Below, piece after piece: positions 18,337 to 32,124 of a stretch of 64,000 nt of DNA. Every line of letters starts with the position of its first letter. The first letter of the stretch is position 1. The stretch is from a virus. The translations under genes were made by a program, and so were the position numbers. The DNA lies in the IMG/VR virus record IMGVR_UViG_3300034683_000142, positions 1-64,000 of that record; one strand, given 5' to 3'. A model generated the notes under the pieces. It had not been told where the DNA came from and did not search any database. It worked only from the letters and a program-made list of their open reading frames with translations.

Positions 18337-19305
18337 ATGGATGAGTTTGAAAATGTTATAGAGTCTGATGATTTTTTAGAAGACTCTACACAACCACAAG
18401 AAAATGTAGTAGAAGAAGATAATGGTATAGAAAGTATCTTTAATGACGATTATGAGGATAATCCTTCTTCACAGTCTATCATTGACAAATTTTTACAATC
18501 TAAAGGAATTGTAGATTCTAAAATTAAGGTCATAGATGAAGATAGTAAAGAAGTTGAAGTAAAATTCTCTGATTTGTCAGAAGAAGAACAACTGGATATA
18601 CTGAATTCTTTAACTACACAAGATAGTCCACAAGTAGATGATTCTGAATTAGCTTTTTTAAATGAACTAAAAAAGAATAATTTAACTATTCAACAGTTTT
18701 TAGATCTTTATAAAGAGTCAGTAATATCTGAAGCTGGACTTCAACCTGAGCCATCATATACAGTAGATCAATATGATGATAAGGAACTATTTTTACTAGA
18801 TCTCAAAAATAAATATGATTTAACAGATGAAGAACTCCAAATAGAACTTGAAAAGGAACTTCAAAATGAGGAACTTTTTAATAAGAAAGTTGCAAAATTA
18901 AGAAGCGAGTATAAAGAATTGGAGGAACAATACAATGCTAGTCAAAAGGCTGAATTTGAAAAACAACAGCAACAGCAGTATAATCAATTTGTGGATCAAA
19001 TGACTGATATTGCTGTAAAAACTACAGGATTTCATGGCTTGGAACTAGAAGATGAAGATAAAAATAATACACTTTCATATCTGCTTGATTTAGATGAAAA
19101 TGGAATGAGTCAATTCTATAAAGATCTAAATAACCCAGAGAAAATATACGAAGTAGCTTGGTATTTAAAATATGGTAAAGATGCCTTCAAAGCAGTTGAA
19201 GATGCATACGAAGCCGAGATAGCAAAGCTAAAATCGAAAGTAGATAAGCCACGTGTTGTTAGGCACCAGAACAACGAAAATGACGTATTTAATAATTTAT
19301 TTTAA
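18337..19305 (+). CDS. Putative capsid scaffolding protein
   Basis: The 322-residue protein is very acidic at the N-terminus and helical throughout, with a coiled-coil and Gln-rich run (about residues 190-222) and a basic C-terminal tail (SKVDKPRVVRHQNNEN). This is the usual make-up of phage scaffolds, whose basic tail contacts the capsid protein. It ends 9 nt before the major capsid gene. It has a clear Shine-Dalgarno AGGAGA at 18325-18330, six bases before the ATG, which is uncommon in Bacteroidales and may mark high expression. Its Trp is TGG. The assignment rests on composition and position, not on a recognised family. Confidence 0.7.
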   Translation: MDEFENVIESDDFLEDSTQPQENVVEEDNGIESIFNDDYEDNPSSQSIIDKFLQSKGIVDSKIKVIDEDSKEVEVKFSDLSEEEQLDILNSLTTQDSPQVDDSELAFLNELKKNNLTIQQFLDLYKESVISEAGLQPEPSYTVDQYDDKELFLLDLKNKYDLTDEELQIELEKELQNEELFNKKVAKLRSEYKELEEQYNASQKAEFEKQQQQQYNQFVDQMTDIAVKTTGFHGLELEDEDKNNTLSYLLDLDENGMSQFYKDLNNPEKIYEVAWYLKYGKDAFKAVEDAYEAEIAKLKSKVDKPRVVRHQNNENDVFNNLF

Positions 19306-19314
19306 TAAAAAACT

Positions 19315-20733
19315 ATGATAGTTGCAAGCTATGTAAATCTGAAGCCTGAATTGGCACACAGTAGAACGTATGAAGACTTCTATAAGTTACTGGGAACTAC
19401 TCCTCAAATGATGGGAGTAATGGCAAGGATGAACATGAATAACACCGCCACATTCCTTACAGAAGGCTTGATGAATGTCTATTACAATCAAAAAACAGTT
19501 AATAAATTTCAACCTATTAATTCATTGATGGTTGAATGGGAGATAGAAGTTGGTTTCTTAAAAAGAGTTGCTTTTGCTGCACCTCCTACAGGAGATGGTG
19601 CTGGCGGCTCAGATATAACAATGTACTTTACTGAAAGGTATTATGAACGATATGATACCTTTATAATTGAAAAATCAGGACAACAGTGTGTTGTTAAGAC
19701 TGTTCCCCAAAGAAAAGCAGATAATTTCTGGGAATATGTTGTACAGTTGATTGACTCGGATTACGAGGCAATTCTTGATGCAAACTCTTGTCAAGTAGGA
19801 GATACTACAAGATTCTTATCGAATGTAGTACCTGAATACCACTCTGAAGGCTACGTAAAGGCACAGAGTAATGTTGAAAAACATAGAACCTGGATTAAAG
19901 AGTCTCGTGTTGATATCAGCATGTCTTCTAGATATGATGCATTTGAAGAGCAGTTTATAAAAATCTCTAATGGTGAAACAGGCGGAGAACTTAAACAAAA
20001 ACTCTATAAACTGAATAAAGCAGAAAGAGATTTGTTAGATTCTTGGTATAATGCTAAAAATCAAGGTCTATTGTGGGATAAATCTACAATGGATGCAAAT
20101 GGTAAGTGTACAGTACATGACCATGAAGGTCGTCCACTGATACAAGGTGATGGACTTATTCCTCAATACCAAAGATTTGCTAGTAAAATGAAATACACTA
20201 GACTTGAAATCTCTGTTATTGATAAAATGATGGAACAAATGGTTGACAAATGTGAAAATCCTGTTGGAAATCACTTTATGTTTGCCGTTAATAAAGTTTT
20301 GTGGAACCAAATTAATACAGCTTTGAGAGATTGGCTGAAATTGTGGAACTCTACACCTACAATGATATACTCTAAAGCAGCAGGAATGCCTATAAAGATT
20401 GATAATCCTATAAAAGTAGGGGCTACTTTCATGTCTTATGAAGTTGCTGGTAATGTAGTTACCTTTGTAGTAGATAATGCACTTTCTAAATATTATCCTA
20501 CTAAGGGGTTTGGCTTGTGTATGGATCTTACTCCTGACATGTCAACTGGTAATCCAGCTGTTGGTGCCTTCACTCTTAAAGGTAAAGAATTTATCTCTAA
20601 CAAACTAACTGGAGTTGGTTTCCAAAATGGAGAAGTAGCTACTCCTGTAGCAGGTGGTAAATTAATAGTATCTGGTTATTATGGTATAGCAGCTTTTGCA
20701 CCATATAAATCATTTATACTTAGCCAAAATTAA
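19315..20733 (+). CDS. Major capsid protein, crAss-like
   Basis: The 472-residue protein is the crAss-type major capsid protein (HK97 fold expected from the family). I recognise the N-terminal LAHSRTYEDFYKLLGTTPQM region, the MTEGLMN-like segment, and the central stretch around YHSEGYVKAQSNVEKHRTWIKES that typifies these capsids. All eight Trp codons are TGG and no TGA is present, unlike most neighbours. Codon use is also less extreme in A+T, as expected for the most highly made protein. It follows the putative scaffold and is followed at once by a terminator-like hairpin that overlaps its stop codon. Confidence 0.9.
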   Translation: MIVASYVNLKPELAHSRTYEDFYKLLGTTPQMMGVMARMNMNNTATFLTEGLMNVYYNQKTVNKFQPINSLMVEWEIEVGFLKRVAFAAPPTGDGAGGSDITMYFTERYYERYDTFIIEKSGQQCVVKTVPQRKADNFWEYVVQLIDSDYEAILDANSCQVGDTTRFLSNVVPEYHSEGYVKAQSNVEKHRTWIKESRVDISMSSRYDAFEEQFIKISNGETGGELKQKLYKLNKAERDLLDSWYNAKNQGLLWDKSTMDANGKCTVHDHEGRPLIQGDGLIPQYQRFASKMKYTRLEISVIDKMMEQMVDKCENPVGNHFMFAVNKVLWNQINTALRDWLKLWNSTPTMIYSKAAGMPIKIDNPIKVGATFMSYEVAGNVVTFVVDNALSKYYPTKGFGLCMDLTPDMSTGNPAVGAFTLKGKEFISNKLTGVGFQNGEVATPVAGGKLIVSGYYGIAAFAPYKSFILSQN

Positions 20734-20766
20734 AAGAATTGGGGAGTTTAATCTCCTCATTCTTTT
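20732..20766 (+). terminator. Terminator-like hairpin after the capsid gene
   Basis: AAAAGAATTGGGGAG (20732-20746) pairs with CTCCTCATTCTTTT (20753-20766) with one bulge and a 6-nt loop. The run of T after the stem is short and part of the stem, so termination may be partial, lowering expression of genes beyond the capsid. Confidence 0.65.
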
Positions 20767-20819
20767 AGATACTAATAACCTATAGATAACAATAACTTAT
20801 ATATAATAAACAATGAGCA

Positions 20820-21716
20820 ATGATTAATGCTATAATATTACGTAGCGTATTCGGGAAGGTGGGCCAAAAATACTTTATCCAACCTTGTCCAAATCCTAGA
20901 ACTGGTAGGTTTGCAGAATGTGTAAAGAACATAGATGCAAATGGAGATATGATATTATCTGAAAGTGAAAAAGAAGACCAAAAGAACAAACTAATACATT
21001 ATATTCCAATTAATGAAATATTTGTAATAGAAGATGGTTTTAAATTGGATCTTACAGATGTGGTAGATAGATGTATTTGGGAAGCAATTCAATATTCCGA
21101 TATAATTGCAAAAGATAGAGACGAAAGAGACGAAAATGGTATTCTAGTAATAGATGGAGATCAACAGAAATATGGTACAGCAGAGCTGTATGTAGAAAGA
21201 CCTGGAGAAGTAACTAAAGCTAGGGTAACCAAAAAACAACTAATCTTCAAAGCAGAGCAGTATATCTATAATGATTCAGAATCCGATAGAATCAAAAAAT
21301 GTCAAGTACTTGGTAGGGATTTAAGAAATGCTTATCCAGCAGACGTTTTAGATTATATGATTAGTGTTGCAGAAAAAGATCCACAAAAAATCATAAATAT
21401 GTATGAAGATGATGGCTGGAAAATGCACTTATTTATATTGGATGCAATAGAAAAAGGTGTTATTAGAAGGTCAGATGGTATATATAGATATGATGATAAA
21501 ATGTTAGGTGGGTCTATAGAAGCAGTTATTACATTATTAAAAGATGTAAGGTATAAAGCTATTCTAGATTCTATAAAGAGAGAAACATATATAGATTACT
21601 TACCTAAATCTGAAATAGAAAATATAGAAAAACACCAAACAGATGGAATACCTCATTTTGATGAGAGTAGAGAAGAAGGTAAAGCAACTTCAACCGCTTC
21701 TAAGAAAAAGAGTTAA
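20820..21716 (+). CDS. crAss-like head-associated protein, 298 aa
   Basis: The 298-residue protein begins MINAIILRSVFGKVGQKYF; an N-terminal beta domain (about 1-110) is followed by a helical, charged domain (about 145-265) and a Lys/Ser-rich tail. Both Trp residues are TGG. It occupies the slot directly after the capsid gene, where crAss-like genomes carry conserved head proteins, so a head-completion or capsid-internal role is likely. The ATG at 20820 is used; a competing upstream ATG at 20813 gives only four codons. Confidence 0.7.
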   Translation: MINAIILRSVFGKVGQKYFIQPCPNPRTGRFAECVKNIDANGDMILSESEKEDQKNKLIHYIPINEIFVIEDGFKLDLTDVVDRCIWEAIQYSDIIAKDRDERDENGILVIDGDQQKYGTAELYVERPGEVTKARVTKKQLIFKAEQYIYNDSESDRIKKCQVLGRDLRNAYPADVLDYMISVAEKDPQKIINMYEDDGWKMHLFILDAIEKGVIRRSDGIYRYDDKMLGGSIEAVITLLKDVRYKAILDSIKRETYIDYLPKSEIENIEKHQTDGIPHFDESREEGKATSTASKKKS

Positions 21717-21732
21717 CTAAATTGTATAACCA

Positions 21733-21755
21733 TTAATTAGGTAATACCTAATTAA
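21733..21755 (+). repeat. Perfect 11-bp inverted repeat between head genes
   Basis: TTAATTAGGTA and TACCTAATTAA flank a single A. As RNA it can form a 9-bp hairpin with a 5-nt loop but has no following T run. As DNA it could be an operator for a dimeric repressor. It lies just upstream of a gene with no ATG. Confidence 0.6.
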
Positions 21756-21810
21756 ATAAAAACTTAAGGATATCACATCAAAACAAGCGTTTGAGTATGC
21801 TTTAGTAGAA

Positions 21811-22653
21811 TTGAACAAAGTCCAGGCTCCTAGCTTACTCTTAGAAGATTATAATTACTTTATTAACAAAGCTATTAATCAGTATGTAAATAAAGTATAT
21901 AACTTGTACGACATCAACCAACAAAAATCAGATGATGTAAGAGTACTTAAATCAACAGCAATACTAGTTCCTACTGTGCAAACAGTATATAGTACACTAA
22001 ATGAAGAATCTAGATTACTGTACAAAACATATGAAGTAGTTCTTCCAGATGATTATTTACACATTTTAAACTGTGTAGTTGAATATGATGTTTTAAAAGA
22101 TTATAAATGCTACAATAAGGGTAGTAAATGAGCCACAGGAGCTAAACGGCTGACAGCCGATATGTTTTCTCAGATAATAAATAATTACTACATGCGTCCA
22201 TCTTATAAGAATCCGTATTTTTATATTAATAATATAACTACGGATACAACTTATCAGACAGCAGATAACCAAACTCCTATTACTTATTCTGAAAATTTAA
22301 ATGCTGGAGTTCCAGAAAATGTAGAAAAAGTTTCTGGAGTTAGGTACGGTAATAAGAATCAAGTAAGATTGGAAATAAGATATGGCAAAGATGATGCAAT
22401 TTTTAAACTTGCATTGGTGTATGTAGATTATTTAAAAGCTCCGCAATTCGTTAGGCTTACTCAAGAACAAGTCGATCAAGTGGAGGATACCTCCCAAGTT
22501 CTTGAATTTCCAGATTATGTTTGTCAGGAAATTGTGAATGAACTAGTTATGTTATTATTAGAGAATGCCAGTGATCCCAGATTACAAACTAACATCCCTA
22601 TTAGTAAATCTATAGCTAATCCTGTACAGGAACAACAACAGAATAATAGATAA
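21811..22653 (+). CDS. crAss-like head/connector protein without an ATG start
   Basis: From TTG 21811 the protein is 280 residues. The frame stays open up to a TAA at 21757-21759, and the extra upstream codons read LKDITSKQAFEYALVE, which looks like genuine protein and matches my memory of the N-terminus of related crAss proteins. No ATG or GTG exists in this stretch, so initiation is at TTG or at a non-standard codon near AAGGA (21766-21770). One TGA (22129-22131) is read as Trp. The protein is alpha/beta with a long helical N-terminus (YFINKAINQYVNKVYNLYD) and a Gln-rich end. A connector or ring role is inferred from position. Confidence 0.65.
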
Positions 22654-22685
22654 ATTTTTATTTTTTGAAAATAAATAAATAAATT

Positions 22686-23606
22686 ATGTTTCAATACACA
22701 AAAACAACGATTATAAATGGGCAATACGCAGTAGATGCTCAAGGTAATCCCCTATTAGATAGTGCTGGTCTTCCAGTAAAAAAAGTACAAAAAGCTTCTG
22801 ATGATTCATCTATTACTGTAATAGGGTCGGGAACTTTTCTTAAAGATAATATAAAAAGTATTTATAAACGACCTTACGAAGCAGGTGTAAAAGAAGAAGC
22901 TACACTAACAGTTAGTTTGAGTGGTGTAACTGCTGGAGATATTTTAAGGCTTACAGTTAAAGTTAAATTGGATGGGACTACTCAGTCTGACTATGCTAAC
23001 TTTACTTATGACTTTAGACAACCAATTACAGTAGATATTGCCTCTTCTGGCACAGCTACTACTGATGCTGCTGAATTTGTTAAAGTTTTCAACAAACTTA
23101 AAGCAGAATATGGTAGGTCATTATTTACAACTTCTGCAACTGCTGAAACTATAACTTTTAAAGCTAAAACTAATGATCAAAGGTTTGAGTCTATAGTATT
23201 AGAAAAAGTTGGTGCAGTTCCTTTGAATACTTTAACTCCAGAAATTAAACAACTTGCAGTAGGTAGCGTATCAGTTCCTGGAAAGAATGGATTTGGAGAT
23301 GATGCATGGATGTTAAAATCTGTAGTTATTCCTACTCTTGAAAATACCAGAGTATTTGGAATACTTAAAGATGAAAAACCTGTTCTAGGTGGTAACTATT
23401 CTCAATATACTCTCAAATATGAAGTAATGTCTGATGAGTATGACATATGGAATGGTAACAAAGTGTCAGTTACAAACCATGTATTCTGGGTAGCAGCTGA
23501 TCAGGTAACTAATTTTGAAAATACAGTTCTTGCTGTACACTCCCCTATTAAATCAATAGGAGAAGGTGGTGTAGTAACAGATGTAGAATTGGTTGTAGGG
23601 CCCTAA
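22686..23606 (+). CDS. Putative auxiliary capsid or tail protein, 306 aa
   Basis: The 306-residue protein is beta-rich with a Thr/Ala/Gly-rich middle (about residues 75-175), the pattern of capsid decoration or tail-tube proteins. All three Trp codons are TGG. It lies inside the head-protein block and is followed by the strongest terminator in the window, suggesting that it ends a highly expressed transcript with the capsid genes. I recognise no named family; a virion structural role is inferred. Confidence 0.7.
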   Translation: MFQYTKTTIINGQYAVDAQGNPLLDSAGLPVKKVQKASDDSSITVIGSGTFLKDNIKSIYKRPYEAGVKEEATLTVSLSGVTAGDILRLTVKVKLDGTTQSDYANFTYDFRQPITVDIASSGTATTDAAEFVKVFNKLKAEYGRSLFTTSATAETITFKAKTNDQRFESIVLEKVGAVPLNTLTPEIKQLAVGSVSVPGKNGFGDDAWMLKSVVIPTLENTRVFGILKDEKPVLGGNYSQYTLKYEVMSDEYDIWNGNKVSVTNHVFWVAADQVTNFENTVLAVHSPIKSIGEGGVVTDVELVVGP

Positions 23607-23632
23607 ATTATAGTTATAAATTAAAAACCTTT

Positions 23633-23664
23633 AAAAGGCGGCGGAACAAACTGCCGCCTTTTTT
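23633..23664 (+). terminator. Strong Rho-independent terminator
   Basis: AAAAGGCGGC (23633-23642) pairs perfectly with GCCGCCTTTT (23653-23662), with a 10-nt loop and a T tract. The GC-rich stem stands out sharply from the AT-rich surroundings. It ends the head-gene transcript and separates it from the connector and tail genes. Confidence 0.9.
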
Positions 23665-23675
23665 ATTTAAAATAT

Positions 23676-24344
23676 ATGATAACAAAACTAGCATCTGCTA
23701 TATATAATGATGTAATAGCTGGATTATCTGGATATACTTCTACTCCAACTATATCTCTTCCACAATTGGAAGATGAGATTGTGGAAGAAAGGTTACAGGT
23801 AATTAAAGAGTATATGTATAGAAATATGATACCCAGAGAAGATTTATACATGGCGATTAATTGTATAGAAGTAGATTGTAAGTCTCTGGATAGATGTCCT
23901 TGTAATAGAGCTACTTATTCAAAACCGATAGCACATTTTGAAATACCACAAATAATTAACGGAATTCCAGATGGTGCTATAGAATATATTGGATCAGTGG
24001 ACAGAATGGTACAATTTAAAGTATATACTTCTACAGCTTTCTTATATCATAAGTATTTAAGGAGAAATTCTAATAAACCATATGTTTATATAGAACCCAC
24101 CCCAAACGAAAATAATAAGTATGATGGGTGGATATTCAATGCTCCATTAATAGAAGTTATTTCAGTTGTGGGAATTTTTAAAGATCCAAGACAAGTAGCT
24201 GAGTATGATTGTTGTAAAGATGATGAAATAGAGAACTATACATTTATATCTACTGAAGTTAAGAAAAGATTAACTGAGAAGAAAATCAGATATTATAGGG
24301 CTCTTCTTCAACCACCACAACCAAATAATCAAGAACCACATTAA
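23676..24344 (+). CDS. crAss-like connector (ring) protein candidate, 222 aa
   Basis: The 222-residue protein has a helical N-terminus, a Cys-containing segment (CIEVDCKSLDRCPC, about residues 65-78) and an alpha/beta core with YVYIEPTPNENNKYDGWIF. The four closely spaced Cys could bind a metal. Its single Trp is TGG. It opens the run of connector and tail genes after the strong terminator. The type of protein and its place fit one of the head-to-tail ring proteins of crAss-like phages, but I cannot name which. Confidence 0.65.
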   Translation: MITKLASAIYNDVIAGLSGYTSTPTISLPQLEDEIVEERLQVIKEYMYRNMIPREDLYMAINCIEVDCKSLDRCPCNRATYSKPIAHFEIPQIINGIPDGAIEYIGSVDRMVQFKVYTSTAFLYHKYLRRNSNKPYVYIEPTPNENNKYDGWIFNAPLIEVISVVGIFKDPRQVAEYDCCKDDEIENYTFISTEVKKRLTEKKIRYYRALLQPPQPNNQEPH

Positions 24345-24355
24345 TATAATAAATA

Positions 24356-25066
24356 ATGCACGAATTTAAATATCCATTTAATACTGCATATGTTCAAGCA
24401 AGAGAACTATATGGGGTAGAACTAAATCCAGATGAATTTGAAAATATAGGTATAGTTGCTTGAGATAGAATTGGAAATAAACAGACAGCTCTATATAAAA
24501 TTGTTTTAGAACCTGAAAAGGTAAATGAAGGAGTCTGGGCTGTAGATTTGCCATGTAATGCTGATATTATAGAAGCTGTTACTGCTGAGTTTGAAGATTG
24601 GGAAAAAACTTCTAACAAGGCTTTAACATATCAAAATAGTAATGGTTGGATAGAGCAATATATCGAAAGAGGTAAAGTAAATACTAATGCTCTATATCAA
24701 TCTGGAAGATTTATTAAGTATAGGAGAGAACAAAATACTTTATACTTTGATGTTCCTTATAAAAAAGTATATATCCTATATAAAGGATTTATAGCTGATG
24801 AAGAAGGATTACCATACTTAACAGGAAAAGAAGTAGATGCAATAGCTGCATTCTGTGCATATATAAATGATCTAAAAGGAGCTAGAATAAGTAGAGATGC
24901 AAACTCTATGCAGTTAGCTAGTTATATGGAGCAAGAATGGAAAAGATTGTGTACTAGAGCAAGAGTTCCAGACTATCTGAACCAGAATGAAATGGATGAA
25001 ATACTAAATGTATCTACTTCATGAGATAGAAAGAGATTTGGGAAAAGTTTTAAGCCTATACGCTAA
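24356..25066 (+). CDS. crAss-like connector/tail protein, 236 aa
   Basis: Reading two TGA codons as Trp (24461-24463 and 25022-25024) gives 236 residues. The core (about residues 60-220) is alpha/beta with GVWAVDLPCNADIIEAVTAEF and a helical end with YMEQEWKRLCTRARVPDYL. The second TGA sits where a standard-code stop would leave 222 residues; reading through adds DRKRFGKSFKPIR, a basic tail. The next gene starts at 25008, inside this one, so the tail overlaps it by 59 nt. Either a basic extension or a relic stop is possible. Structural role inferred from context. Confidence 0.7.
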
Positions 25067-26147
25067 TATGAGGTGACTATTCAATCATGGAATATCTGCA
25101 TCAGAATTATATTCTGGAGACATGTCTGATATCTGTGATAAAGATTATAGATGATTTATAAATAACTTTTCATACAGGGAAGATAACCTAGAAAGTTATT
25201 TTGGAAGTATATTTATGTATTCTATAGATATAATAATATCCTATGTTATAGAAAATAAAGTAAGATTTGTTGGGCCAAAAAATCTATTCTATATAGATTT
25301 TGAGATCTTTCAGGATGAAGAATTTAAAAGACATAGGCAATTAGGTAGAATGCAAGATATAGATTTAATAGAAGCAGATTTTACAGGATATCAGTTAACA
25401 TACTTTTATAGATATTCAAATAAAGATTCAAGATATAGAAAAACTAATTTTTATATTGGATCTAAACACAGAGAGAAGTTCTTGAATAAGGTAAATTCAG
25501 GAGAAAAAATGTATTCTGTTAAGGATGTAAAACTTGAGTACTTTTTACCACAAATATATAAAAAATTTCCAAAGTTATCAAAAAAGGAAATAAAAAAGAT
25601 ATTAATGAGAGGGTATTTTAGAATGTATTATGCAATAAAACAAAGGTGTTATATTACTCTTAGGTCTAAAATGTATAATATATCATTCTTTGTTGGAACA
25701 TTCTATAAAAGTCCAGAAAGACAGATAACTGAGTACTCATTTAGAATGAGGAAGAAGCTTATCAAGATAGCTAAATGAAAAAAGACTGAATATGATAATA
25801 GTTTTTATATAGCCATATCAAAAAGCAGAATGGCAGATTGAGTAGCTTTAAATAATAAAAATGATAGGGCTGGTTGAATATGATTAGAATTTAAAGATGT
25901 TATTGCTAGCAAACAATTAGAGTCTGCTCTATATAATTCTGTTTATTCTTATATATTTAGAATAAAAGTTAAAAAGAAGTATACTAAAAGATGAGTTTTT
26001 AGAATAGAAGATAAGAAGTATAGAGATCCTGCTTTTATAGGTATAGCAATTAACTATAAATTACAACCAGCAACTATACATTGAAAAGAATTAATAAAAG
26101 GATATAATGAAGAAGGAAGCAGTGAATTTGTTCAATCAAGGTCTTAA
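25008..26147 (+). CDS. Connector/tail protein, 379 aa, rich in Tyr, Arg and Lys
   Basis: Eight TGA codons are read as Trp. ATG 25008 is preferred to ATG 25068 because the extra residues (MYLLHEIERDLGKVLSLYAN) form a sensible amphipathic helix continuous with the rest. The protein is basic, very rich in Tyr and aromatic residues, and alternates helices with strands. It overlaps the previous gene by 59 nt and the next by 41 nt, consistent with tight co-translation. No family is recognised; a head-tail joining or nucleic-acid-contacting role would fit the charge and position. Confidence 0.7.
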
Positions 26148-28350: not shown

Positions 28351-31300
28351 ATGAGTTTACCAAATATAGTAATAGACTTTAGTAACCTTATTCAGGGTAA
28401 CCCTGAAGAAGGTAAACTAATATACAAGTATAATCCATTCTTTAATTTAAAAGTAAAGAATCCAACTACTTACAGGGATCTAACTAGTTTAAGAATTAAT
28501 GCTATTAAGGCTGGACTAAGTACTAAAGCTCCGATAGATATAGATATAGAAGAGTCATATGATGGTTCTGCTAACCTAATACTAAATGATAGAGTTAACC
28601 CACTTAAAATAGTTAATTCTAGATTCTATCTTATTGATTCTCTTAATTATAAAATAGGAGATAGAAAAGGTAACTTAGATACTAATATATATACTGAGGA
28701 CAACTTTAAGGTAGAAGCTAGTTTAGTAAAATCTGTAAATAGTTTAGTTAATATAGAGTTTGTAGGCATCTTTGAAGGTGGAAGAATGCCTGTTGGTAAT
28801 TATACTTTCTATATAAAATTAGCAGATTCAGATGGTAATGAATCAGATTTTATAGCAGAAAGTGGAAAAGTAGTATGTCATATAGGAAATGTTAATCAGC
28901 CTAAATATATAAGAGGTGGTCAACTAAATGAAGACAGTGGTAAGTCAATCAAACTAAATGTAAATAATGTAGATATGGCTTACACCTATGTAAATATCTA
29001 CTATACTAAAACTACTGGAACTAGTTCTGAAGATATAACTAGCGCATACAGAATAGTAGATAAATATAAAATTATGGGGTTAAATACTCCAATAACAATT
29101 ACTGGCTACGAACAGCATGAGAGTATATCTATTGATGATATTAATATAAGATATGCTGAGTTTGATTCAGCAAAAACTCTTGAGAATTGTCAAAATATCT
29201 CATTTGCTGGAAACATTACTAAAAAATATGATTTATATCAATATTTAGCAAATCTTAGTTTATTTATAACTCCAGAAATAGTTAATGAAGAAACTATAGG
29301 TAATTTAAACCATAATTATGAAGAAACAGTAAGCTATACTAAAGGATATGAATATTATAATGTAAATAATATATATTATAGATTAGGATACTGGGATCAA
29401 GAAATATATAGATTTGGTATAGTATATATATTAAATGATTATACATTATCCCCAGTCTTTAGTATTAGGGGAACTAAAGAACTAAGTACTACTTATGTAT
29501 GAAGTGATATAAAATTATCAAAAAATATAAGAGGTAATATTATAGAAACTGAAGAAGATAATATAATAGAAGGTACTAATGGTTTAGATAATAATAAAGG
29601 TATATTTAAAATAGTAAATGATGGTAATCCTGTATTTTCTAACAATGGTATTAGGCCTATAGGTATAAGATTTAAATTCCATTCTGATGTTATCACAAAT
29701 AAATTAGAAGGATTACCTGCATTTACCTTAGGATTCTTTATAGTAAGACAAAAAAGAATTCCTACTATACTAGCCCAAGCTGTTGGTATATCAACTACAA
29801 TAAACGGAAGACTGCCAGTTATTAAAGTTGATTCTGATTATATAATAGAATCATTTTTAACTAAAGATGTAAGAGGAAAACCATTTCTTGGAAGTTCTAT
29901 ATTTAAAGTGCCACAAGATAAAATAGTAAATAATGCACTATTATGTCCAGAAGCTGACTTAAGAACTGAAATATATAACACATATTTTAATTCAGCAGAA
30001 TATACTCTTATAGAAAGTAAATATCAACCTCATGAAGATCCCATAAAAGGCAGATCATTTATAAAGAGTAGCTCAGACAATTCTCATTATTACTTAGGAG
30101 AATTAGAAAGAATAAACGTAAATAATTTCATGATTAATACTGGACTCTTATTAGTGGAGCCAGAAATAGATCTAACAAGAGGAAATAAGTATAATTTCTC
30201 TAGTAAAGCAGGAGATGCTATAGCAGCATATAAAGCAGAAGATGTGTTTTATGGAGACTACTCTAATCCATTAACTCCTATAGATGACTTAAACTTCTTT
30301 AACAATTCTAATTCTAAAATTAGAGGTATATTTAATACTTATATAGGTACAGATTATAGTAATATTAAACAAGCTACATATTATAATATATATCAAAAAG
30401 GTTACAACTTTGATTTGTACTGAAAAGACTATTTTAAACTTAGAGCACATGATTCTAGTCCATTTTTTCCTGTAAGTGATAAAATATCATGAACTAGAAT
30501 AGTTAATAATAAGACTGATGTATTCTATAGAGGAGACTGTTATATAAATACTTATACTCATAGAATGAATTGAAATTTTAAAGATCCAGAATTGCCTACA
30601 AATAATAGAATTGTAGATAGATATACATGATATAAAAATTGAAGAGTGGTACAAAAAGCTTCAGTATCCGTAGATTATGAAGGTAATAGAGACCAAAAAC
30701 TAAGTTATTATAAATTATTGCCTGTATTTACTTATAAAGATGATATATCTATTGAGTCTTTAATATATAAAGATGCTGCAATTGAGCCTCTTAAAGGTAT
30801 AATAGATCCAGAAGATAAAAGCTTTAAAAAGTATTCAGAATTAAATGGAATATTTGGGTATGATAAACTAAATAGACCAGATATAAATGCTGTAGGACTA
30901 GGAAACTGGGTAACATTTAAAGTATGTAGTAATGTAAACTTGGCCATGAGAGACATTGATTCTAGCAGACCAGAAGAAGAAGCTGTATTTCATATGAAAA
31001 GGTCTTTCTTTCCATTACAAAGTATAGATAAAAACATAAAACTTCCAGAGTCTAGAGTATTAAATAGTGGTATTAGTAAAACTACTGGTGATAGATACTA
31101 TTATGAACTTGGCGACATACCCTTTATAAAAGACACATTTTCAACTAGGATATATTATTCTAATGTATTACAACAAGCTATATTTGTAAATGGTAATAGA
31201 GTATTCTTATCTAAAAATTATCAAGACTACTCTATGGAGTACGGAGCTCTAGTTAAATTAGTAGAATGGTATGGCACTTTAGTAGCTGTGATGGAACATG

Positions 31301-32124
31301 GTATATTAATGATACCAGTTAACGAAAGGGCTATGATGACTAATGAATCTGGAGAGAATGTTTATATTAATACTGATAACGTACTTCCTAAAAATCCAGT
31401 AGTAATTTCTAATACATTTGGATCTTTATGACCAGATTCAGTAGTTAAAACTTCTAGATTTATCTATGGAATAGATACAGTTGCTAAAAAAATATGAAGA
31501 ACTAATGGAGAAACTATAGAGTTAATTTCTGATTTAAAGATTCAAAAATTCTTAAATGATAATATAAACTTAAGAGAATCTGATAGAGATAATACAATCT
31601 ATGTACACTCTATAAAGACTCACTATAATGCTTTTAAACATGATGTGTTATTTGTATTTAAATATGGTACAAAGAAATGACATTTATGTTGAAATGAGAT
31701 ACTAGAAAAGTGAGTAACTAGGTACTCATGATTTCCAGAGTTTTCAGAAAATATTAACAATATTTTTTATACATTTGCAAATACAAATGTTCATACAGCA
31801 GCTGGTAATTATTTATATAAACATGGTTTTGCAGGAACTTTTAATGAAAAAGGAAATATAGAACCAACTAAGTGATATGAAGAACAGCATCCATTTGAAT
31901 TTGAATTTGTAGTTGCTGATTCTGAAGGAGTTCAAAAAATATTTGATAACCTAAAAATAATATCAAATAAGGTAGAACCAAATTCACTTATTTTTGAAGT
32001 AACTGGAGATGGATTTGAATGAAATGAACAAAAGAAAGATATAATATCACTTAATAATATGGATTCTGAAGATGAGGAAGAATTACTTACAGGTTTTGGT
32101 TCTCCATTTACAACTATATTCTAA
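28351..32124 (+). CDS. Large crAss-like tail protein, 1257 aa
   Basis: One frame of 1257 residues crosses about 14 TGA codons, eight of them in the last 230 residues. The N-terminal third is beta-rich and includes VGNYTFYIKLADSDGNESDF and VVCHIGNVNQPKYIRGGQL, a signature seen in large crAss-like tail proteins. Residues about 850-1030 are richer in charged helices, with a conserved-looking YGTLVAVMEHGILMIPVNE stretch. The acidic C-terminus ends FGSPFTTIF. It probably builds the tail barrel or needle with the 738-residue protein upstream. Named role uncertain. Confidence 0.75.

Follow-up and report, generated by a model that had tools for sequence, protein, structure and literature searches.

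The gene of the major capsid protein (MCP) and that of a 306-aa protein strongly avoid the reassigned stop codon in both zeta clades of crAss-like phages that we compared, one TGA-coded and one TAG-coded, and the gene of a 298-aa conserved head-region protein does so less strongly. This avoidance very probably reflects selection at the level of translation, acting against the reassigned codon in those virion proteins that are produced in the greatest amounts.

The DNA analysed, hereafter the window, comprises the opening 64 kb of a virus record of 98,884 bases (GC 29%). The virus is a zeta-like crAss phage (Crassvirales), as indicated by the family matches of its MCP (PF23898 Crass_capsid, E 2e-12) and its muzzle protein (Table 1), both above cut-off; the ring genes are syntenic, with weak family matches. 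The window corresponds to the late region of this phage, and its plus-strand late genes carry 136 TGA and 110 TGG in frame, while the minus-strand genes, which lie beyond the window, use TGA far less (12 of 66 Trp codons). TGA is read as Trp, since TGA and TGG replace each other at the same positions in Trp columns conserved across relatives. No tRNA gene, and no suppressor with a UCA anticodon, was found in the 98,884-base record, which is a fragment. Relatives of 172-213 kb possess tRNA arrays, and a UCA-anticodon tRNA is encoded by the TGA-coded relatives G002, G003 and G012, though none was found in the record of TGA-coded relative G001. The terminase, for which no match was obtained in the window record or in nine related records, and the portal, which was not recognised among the proteins scanned, were consequently not scored.

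Table 1. Genes of the TGA-poor block and flanking genes used for contrast (window coordinates)
Feature	Position	Strand	TGG/TGA	Remarks
Putative scaffold, 322 aa, acidic	18337..19305	+	1/0	Directly upstream of MCP
MCP	19315..20733	+	8/0	PF23898
298-aa conserved head-region protein	20820..21716	+	2/0
280-aa protein	21811..22653	+		Sixth gene of the block; holds its only TGA
Sole in-frame TGA of the block	22129..22131	+		In the 280-aa gene; column is W (TGG) in some relatives, V/I/L in others
306-aa protein, predicted auxiliary capsid (shell) protein of the crAss001 gp36 type	22686..23606	+	3/0	Predicted-structure match
222-aa protein, Ring-2-like	23676..24344	+	1/0	PF25702 E 7e-4, below cut-off; TGA-rich in relatives
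236-aa protein, Ring-1-like (flank)	24356..25066	+	4/2	PF24228 E 9e-5, below cut-off
379-aa protein (flank)	25008..26147	+	0/8
Muzzle protein (flank)	28351..32124	+	3/14	PF25731 crAss_MUZ E 1e-24

Within the window, the depletion of TGA in the block exceeds chance. A sequence-only reading had described the putative scaffold, MCP, 298-aa, 306-aa and 222-aa genes as using TGG exclusively, and our count agrees (15 TGG, no TGA); the one TGA that it had located in the block is likewise there, but within a sixth gene, that of the 280-aa protein. Its further statement that TGA makes up most Trp codons of the flanking genes is true of the late genes of the window taken together (55%), but the majority is modest, and in the adjoining 236-aa gene TGG prevails. 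The TGG:TGA ratio is 15:1 in the six genes against 95:135 in the remaining late genes of the window (Fisher P = 3e-5; P = 3e-6 for the five named genes). As the block had been chosen after looking at the data, scan tests were run in addition: the longest run of TGG interrupted by no more than one TGA has a length of 15 (permutation P = 0.0036), and a scan in gene order gives P = 0.001. The MCP contributes over half of the signal (8 of the 15 TGG), and taken alone, with a G probability of 0.25 derived from its own A/G-ending codons, its 8 TGG without TGA correspond to P = 1.5e-5.

The per-gene comparison across recoded relatives, which had been proposed along with these claims, was then carried out on about 75 loci gathered by two scans with the MCP. 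Based on their in-frame codons, these loci form two clades, one TGA-coded, with MCPs about 65% identical, and a TAG-coded sister clade (about 40-50%), in which TAG is reassigned to Gln; counts were limited to stretches with homology to genes of the window, taken from 15 TGA-coded and 42 TAG-coded dereplicated loci. The share of Trp codons written as TGA in the TGA clade was (i) 0.12 in the MCP gene (n = 103), (ii) 0.00 in the 306-aa gene, which has just 13 Trp codons with few at conserved columns, (iii) 0.20 in the 298-aa gene (n = 41), and (iv) 0.79, 0.66, 0.91, 0.79 and 0.73 in the Ring-2-like (222-aa), Ring-1-like, 379-aa, 738-aa and muzzle genes, respectively. Correspondingly, the TAG fraction of Gln codons in the TAG clade was 0.10 in the MCP, 0.06 in the 306-aa and 0.08 in the 298-aa gene, and 0.37-0.51 in tail genes. 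Two further genes take a middle position, the 280-aa gene in both zeta clades (0.25 in the TAG clade) and the putative scaffold gene in the TAG clade (0.20), the latter being low and mostly TGG in the TGA clade, where it totals 15 Trp codons. Sign tests against tail genes, which overstate independence because the relatives share ancestry, gave 11/0 (TGA clade) and 27/0 (TAG clade) for the MCP, and 8/0 and 25/0 for the 306-aa gene. At conserved Trp columns, the MCP and 298-aa genes have 102 TGG and 15 TGA, and the tail genes 25 TGG and 89 TGA. Avoidance is not absolute, as several MCPs of the TGA clade bear 1-3 TGA, and two TAG-coded zeta MCPs (L061 and L068) are exceptions with 7 TAG each.

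These counts do not uphold an exemption of the whole block, since TGA is used in the 222-aa and 280-aa genes among 14 dereplicated relatives sharing the code; the contiguous TGA-free block is specific to this genome, and its 222-aa gene, having a single Trp codon and so offering little statistical power, may be free of TGA by chance. Base composition was considered as a cause and rejected: in the TGA clade, A/G-ending codons of the MCP are as A-rich as those of other genes, and the G fraction at other A/G-ending codons is flat across genes (0.10-0.17).

Bacterial genes of high expression favour two-fold codons that end in C, together with CGT and GGT, and avoid ATA. The MCP carries this signature (C-ending codons, CGT and GGT, poor in ATA) and has the strongest bias to C-ending codons among the late genes scored. 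In the TGA clade, MCP and tail gene frequencies were.45 and.11 for TTC,.26 and.06 for ATC,.11 and.45 for ATA,.35 and.11 for AAC, and.33 and.08 for CGT. The preferences are those of bacterial translational selection, with the difference that here they extend to a reassigned stop codon, Trp showing the largest codon shift of all amino acids between MCP and tail. Depletion of the reassigned codon tracks codon adaptation: over ortholog classes, the reassigned fraction and C-ending bias have rank correlations of -0.81 and -0.72 in the two zeta clades, and over late ORFs genome-wide the correlation is -0.41 to -0.58 in four relatives (four of five genomes). The genome to which the window belongs shows no such trend across its late ORFs (rho 0.05, n = 15), so that there the pattern is carried by the MCP. 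The putative scaffold and 298-aa genes are depleted despite only mild codon bias.

The same tendency was found beyond the zeta group, in counts that rest on mechanical ORF calls. In a delta-type crAss clade, located with the cr4_1 MCP, TAG accounts for 13 of 362 Gln codons of the MCP (3.6%) against 1215 of 4644 (26%) in other, neighbouring ORFs, and it is lower in the MCP in 24 of 24 genomes, one MCP (L246) being exceptional with TAG at 6 of 17 Gln; the reassigned fraction and C-ending bias correlate at -0.56. The Lak megaphage Lak-A1 has a Gp23-type MCP; of 157 ORFs, that of the MCP is the most biased to C-ending codons, and it has TAG at 2 of 27 Gln codons (7%), against a mean of 0.30. A placement of reassigned codons nearer the 5' end of genes, as a cost of early termination might produce, was also looked for: no such effect was seen in five zeta genomes, TAG in the delta loci (L197-L276) is shifted slightly toward gene 5' ends (-0.04), which may come from over-extension of ORFs, and the 5' effect seen in Lak is common to a control codon.

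In each of the two zeta clades, two genes among those with the strongest depletion appear to encode the two proteins of the capsid shell, one being the MCP and the other, the 306-aa protein, resembling a crAss001 capsid chain in its predicted structure. The AlphaFold2 model of the 306-aa protein (pLDDT 85.5) has a sole significant PDB match, to chain a of 7qof, the icosahedral capsid of crAss001 (333 aa, E 1e-7, TM about 0.5), which we infer from its length and from PMC10172136 to be gp36; no sequence match was found for this gp36-type assignment. The 298-aa protein has no significant PDB fold match and only a short, weak RecA-like one, and the 322-aa protein, without a family match, is a putative scaffold by position. 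The crAss001 virion (T=9) contains nine MCP and nine auxiliary capsid copies per asymmetric unit, and its rings are dodecameric (PMC10172136). These copy numbers, together with codon bias, served as our proxies for expression level. A suppressor tRNA would read each reassigned codon in competition with the host release factor, and such competition would lead to slower reading and occasional termination. The cost would scale with the number of chains produced: a virion needs MCP and shell protein in hundreds of copies, a ring about a dozen, so that TGG would persist only in the genes of greatest output. That the MCP remains readable in the standard code would be a by-product.

Of the two causes suggested from the sequence, one was that abundant proteins are under selection for fast or safe translation. 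It is backed by both zeta sub-clades, each with its own reassignment, by a third clade of crAss phages, by Lak and by the codon-bias proxy. The other was that heads could begin to form early, with recoding still incomplete. Taken as a timing function, in which head genes stay readable under the standard code and heads are made before, or without, the suppressor tRNA, it is unlikely. It agrees with the five adjacent TGA-free head genes of this genome and with the mostly TGG scaffold gene of the TGA clade. However, the putative scaffold and 280-aa genes of the TAG clade bear TAG at 20% and 25% of Gln codons against 6-10% in the MCP and 306-aa genes, and if the scaffold assignment is right, heads there could not precede recoding; moreover, MCPs with TGA occur in the TGA clade itself, and an MCP codon bias reaching beyond Trp would not be expected. 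Still less probable is that slowly evolving or newly acquired genes retain ancestral TGG for want of time, although the MCP is well conserved and TGA-free lectin-like ORFs upstream of the MCP in relative G002 look acquired. Exchange of TGG and TGA is synonymous, so protein conservation gives no protection; equally conserved Trp columns of the 379-aa gene (TGA in nearly all relatives) and of the Ring-1-like gene are TGA, and the MCP and 298-aa genes are present in both zeta sub-clades, with identities of about 65% and 40-50%. That one gene cluster merely happened to retain TGG is highly improbable, and disfavoured for the MCP and 306-aa protein: Trp codons are few per gene, the block was picked post hoc and the window-only scans give P = 0.001-0.004, but the MCP pattern recurs in 11 of 11 TGA-coded zeta, 27 of 27 TAG-coded zeta and 24 of 24 delta genomes.

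A leading idea on phage recoding is that stop codons are reassigned to prevent premature making of structural and lysis proteins. If the MCP, the most abundant structural product, avoids the reassigned codon, recoding is not needed to gate the MCP, and the codon would behave as a burden, purged by selection from the genes of greatest output. More tentatively, use of the reassigned codon in recoded phages generally may be graded by protein output, as a translation tax and not as a switch gating structural genes, with the foremost structural gene lying outside the presumed gate. The purpose of phage recoding would thereby become testable through codon counts and proteomics, and for recoded phages that are uncultured, depletion of the reassigned codon would be an easily read sign, in the sequence, of proteins made in large amounts.

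In Blastocrithidia (PMC12153298) and in a ciliate (PMC10553269), highly expressed genes are known to be poor in reassigned codons; there, as here, the depletion is tied to codon adaptation or expression and interpreted as a burden on translation. In those two cases the genome is nuclear and the code change permanent; here the genome is that of a phage, the exempt genes are those of virion shell proteins, and the host presumably follows the standard code and has a release factor still reading UGA. Our phages share their groups, reassignments (TGA to Trp, TAG to Gln) and late-gene concentration with published crAss-like and Lak recoding (PMC7886860, PMC12386605, PMC6784885, PMC9523058). In contrast to the emphasis of such reports, of which PMC6784885, PMC12386605 and PMC9523058 stress structural genes carrying reassigned codons, the most abundant structural proteins are here the exception. 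A single zeta MCP that lacks in-frame stops was mentioned and not followed up (PMC7886860), and among four marker proteins analysed elsewhere TAG was stated only for terminase and tape measure (PMC10607447). In 715 code-15 genomes, the MCP was recovered in 407 with the standard table and in 475 with table 15 (PMC11210395), which suggests that most code-15 MCPs are little broken by the standard code. In the open full-text literature, outside which many subscription papers lie, we found neither a report of such avoidance in phages nor a statement of an abundance rule for them.

Several minor observations were made in the relatives. The UCA-anticodon tRNAs of three TGA-coded relatives (L123 1500-1573, L124 1500-1573 and L125 1468-1541, all on the minus strand) sit apart from the main tRNA array, where an array is present in the data, and each adjoins a helix-turn-helix/HNH-like gene without internal TGA. 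CCA-anticodon tRNAs with a long variable arm occur in two TGA-coded relatives (L107 6327-6410; L110 7043-7124), and the G001 record, to which L107 belongs, also has a CUA tRNA. The tRNA arrays of two TAG-coded relatives include tmRNA genes (Rfam RF00023; L112 2035-2319, minus strand, and L114 10705-11066, plus strand). The TGA-free late-strand ORFs of G002 are four adjacent ones upstream of the MCP (L179 12679-18598, minus strand), three of them with a Laminin_G_3 lectin domain, and were perhaps acquired from standard-code phages.
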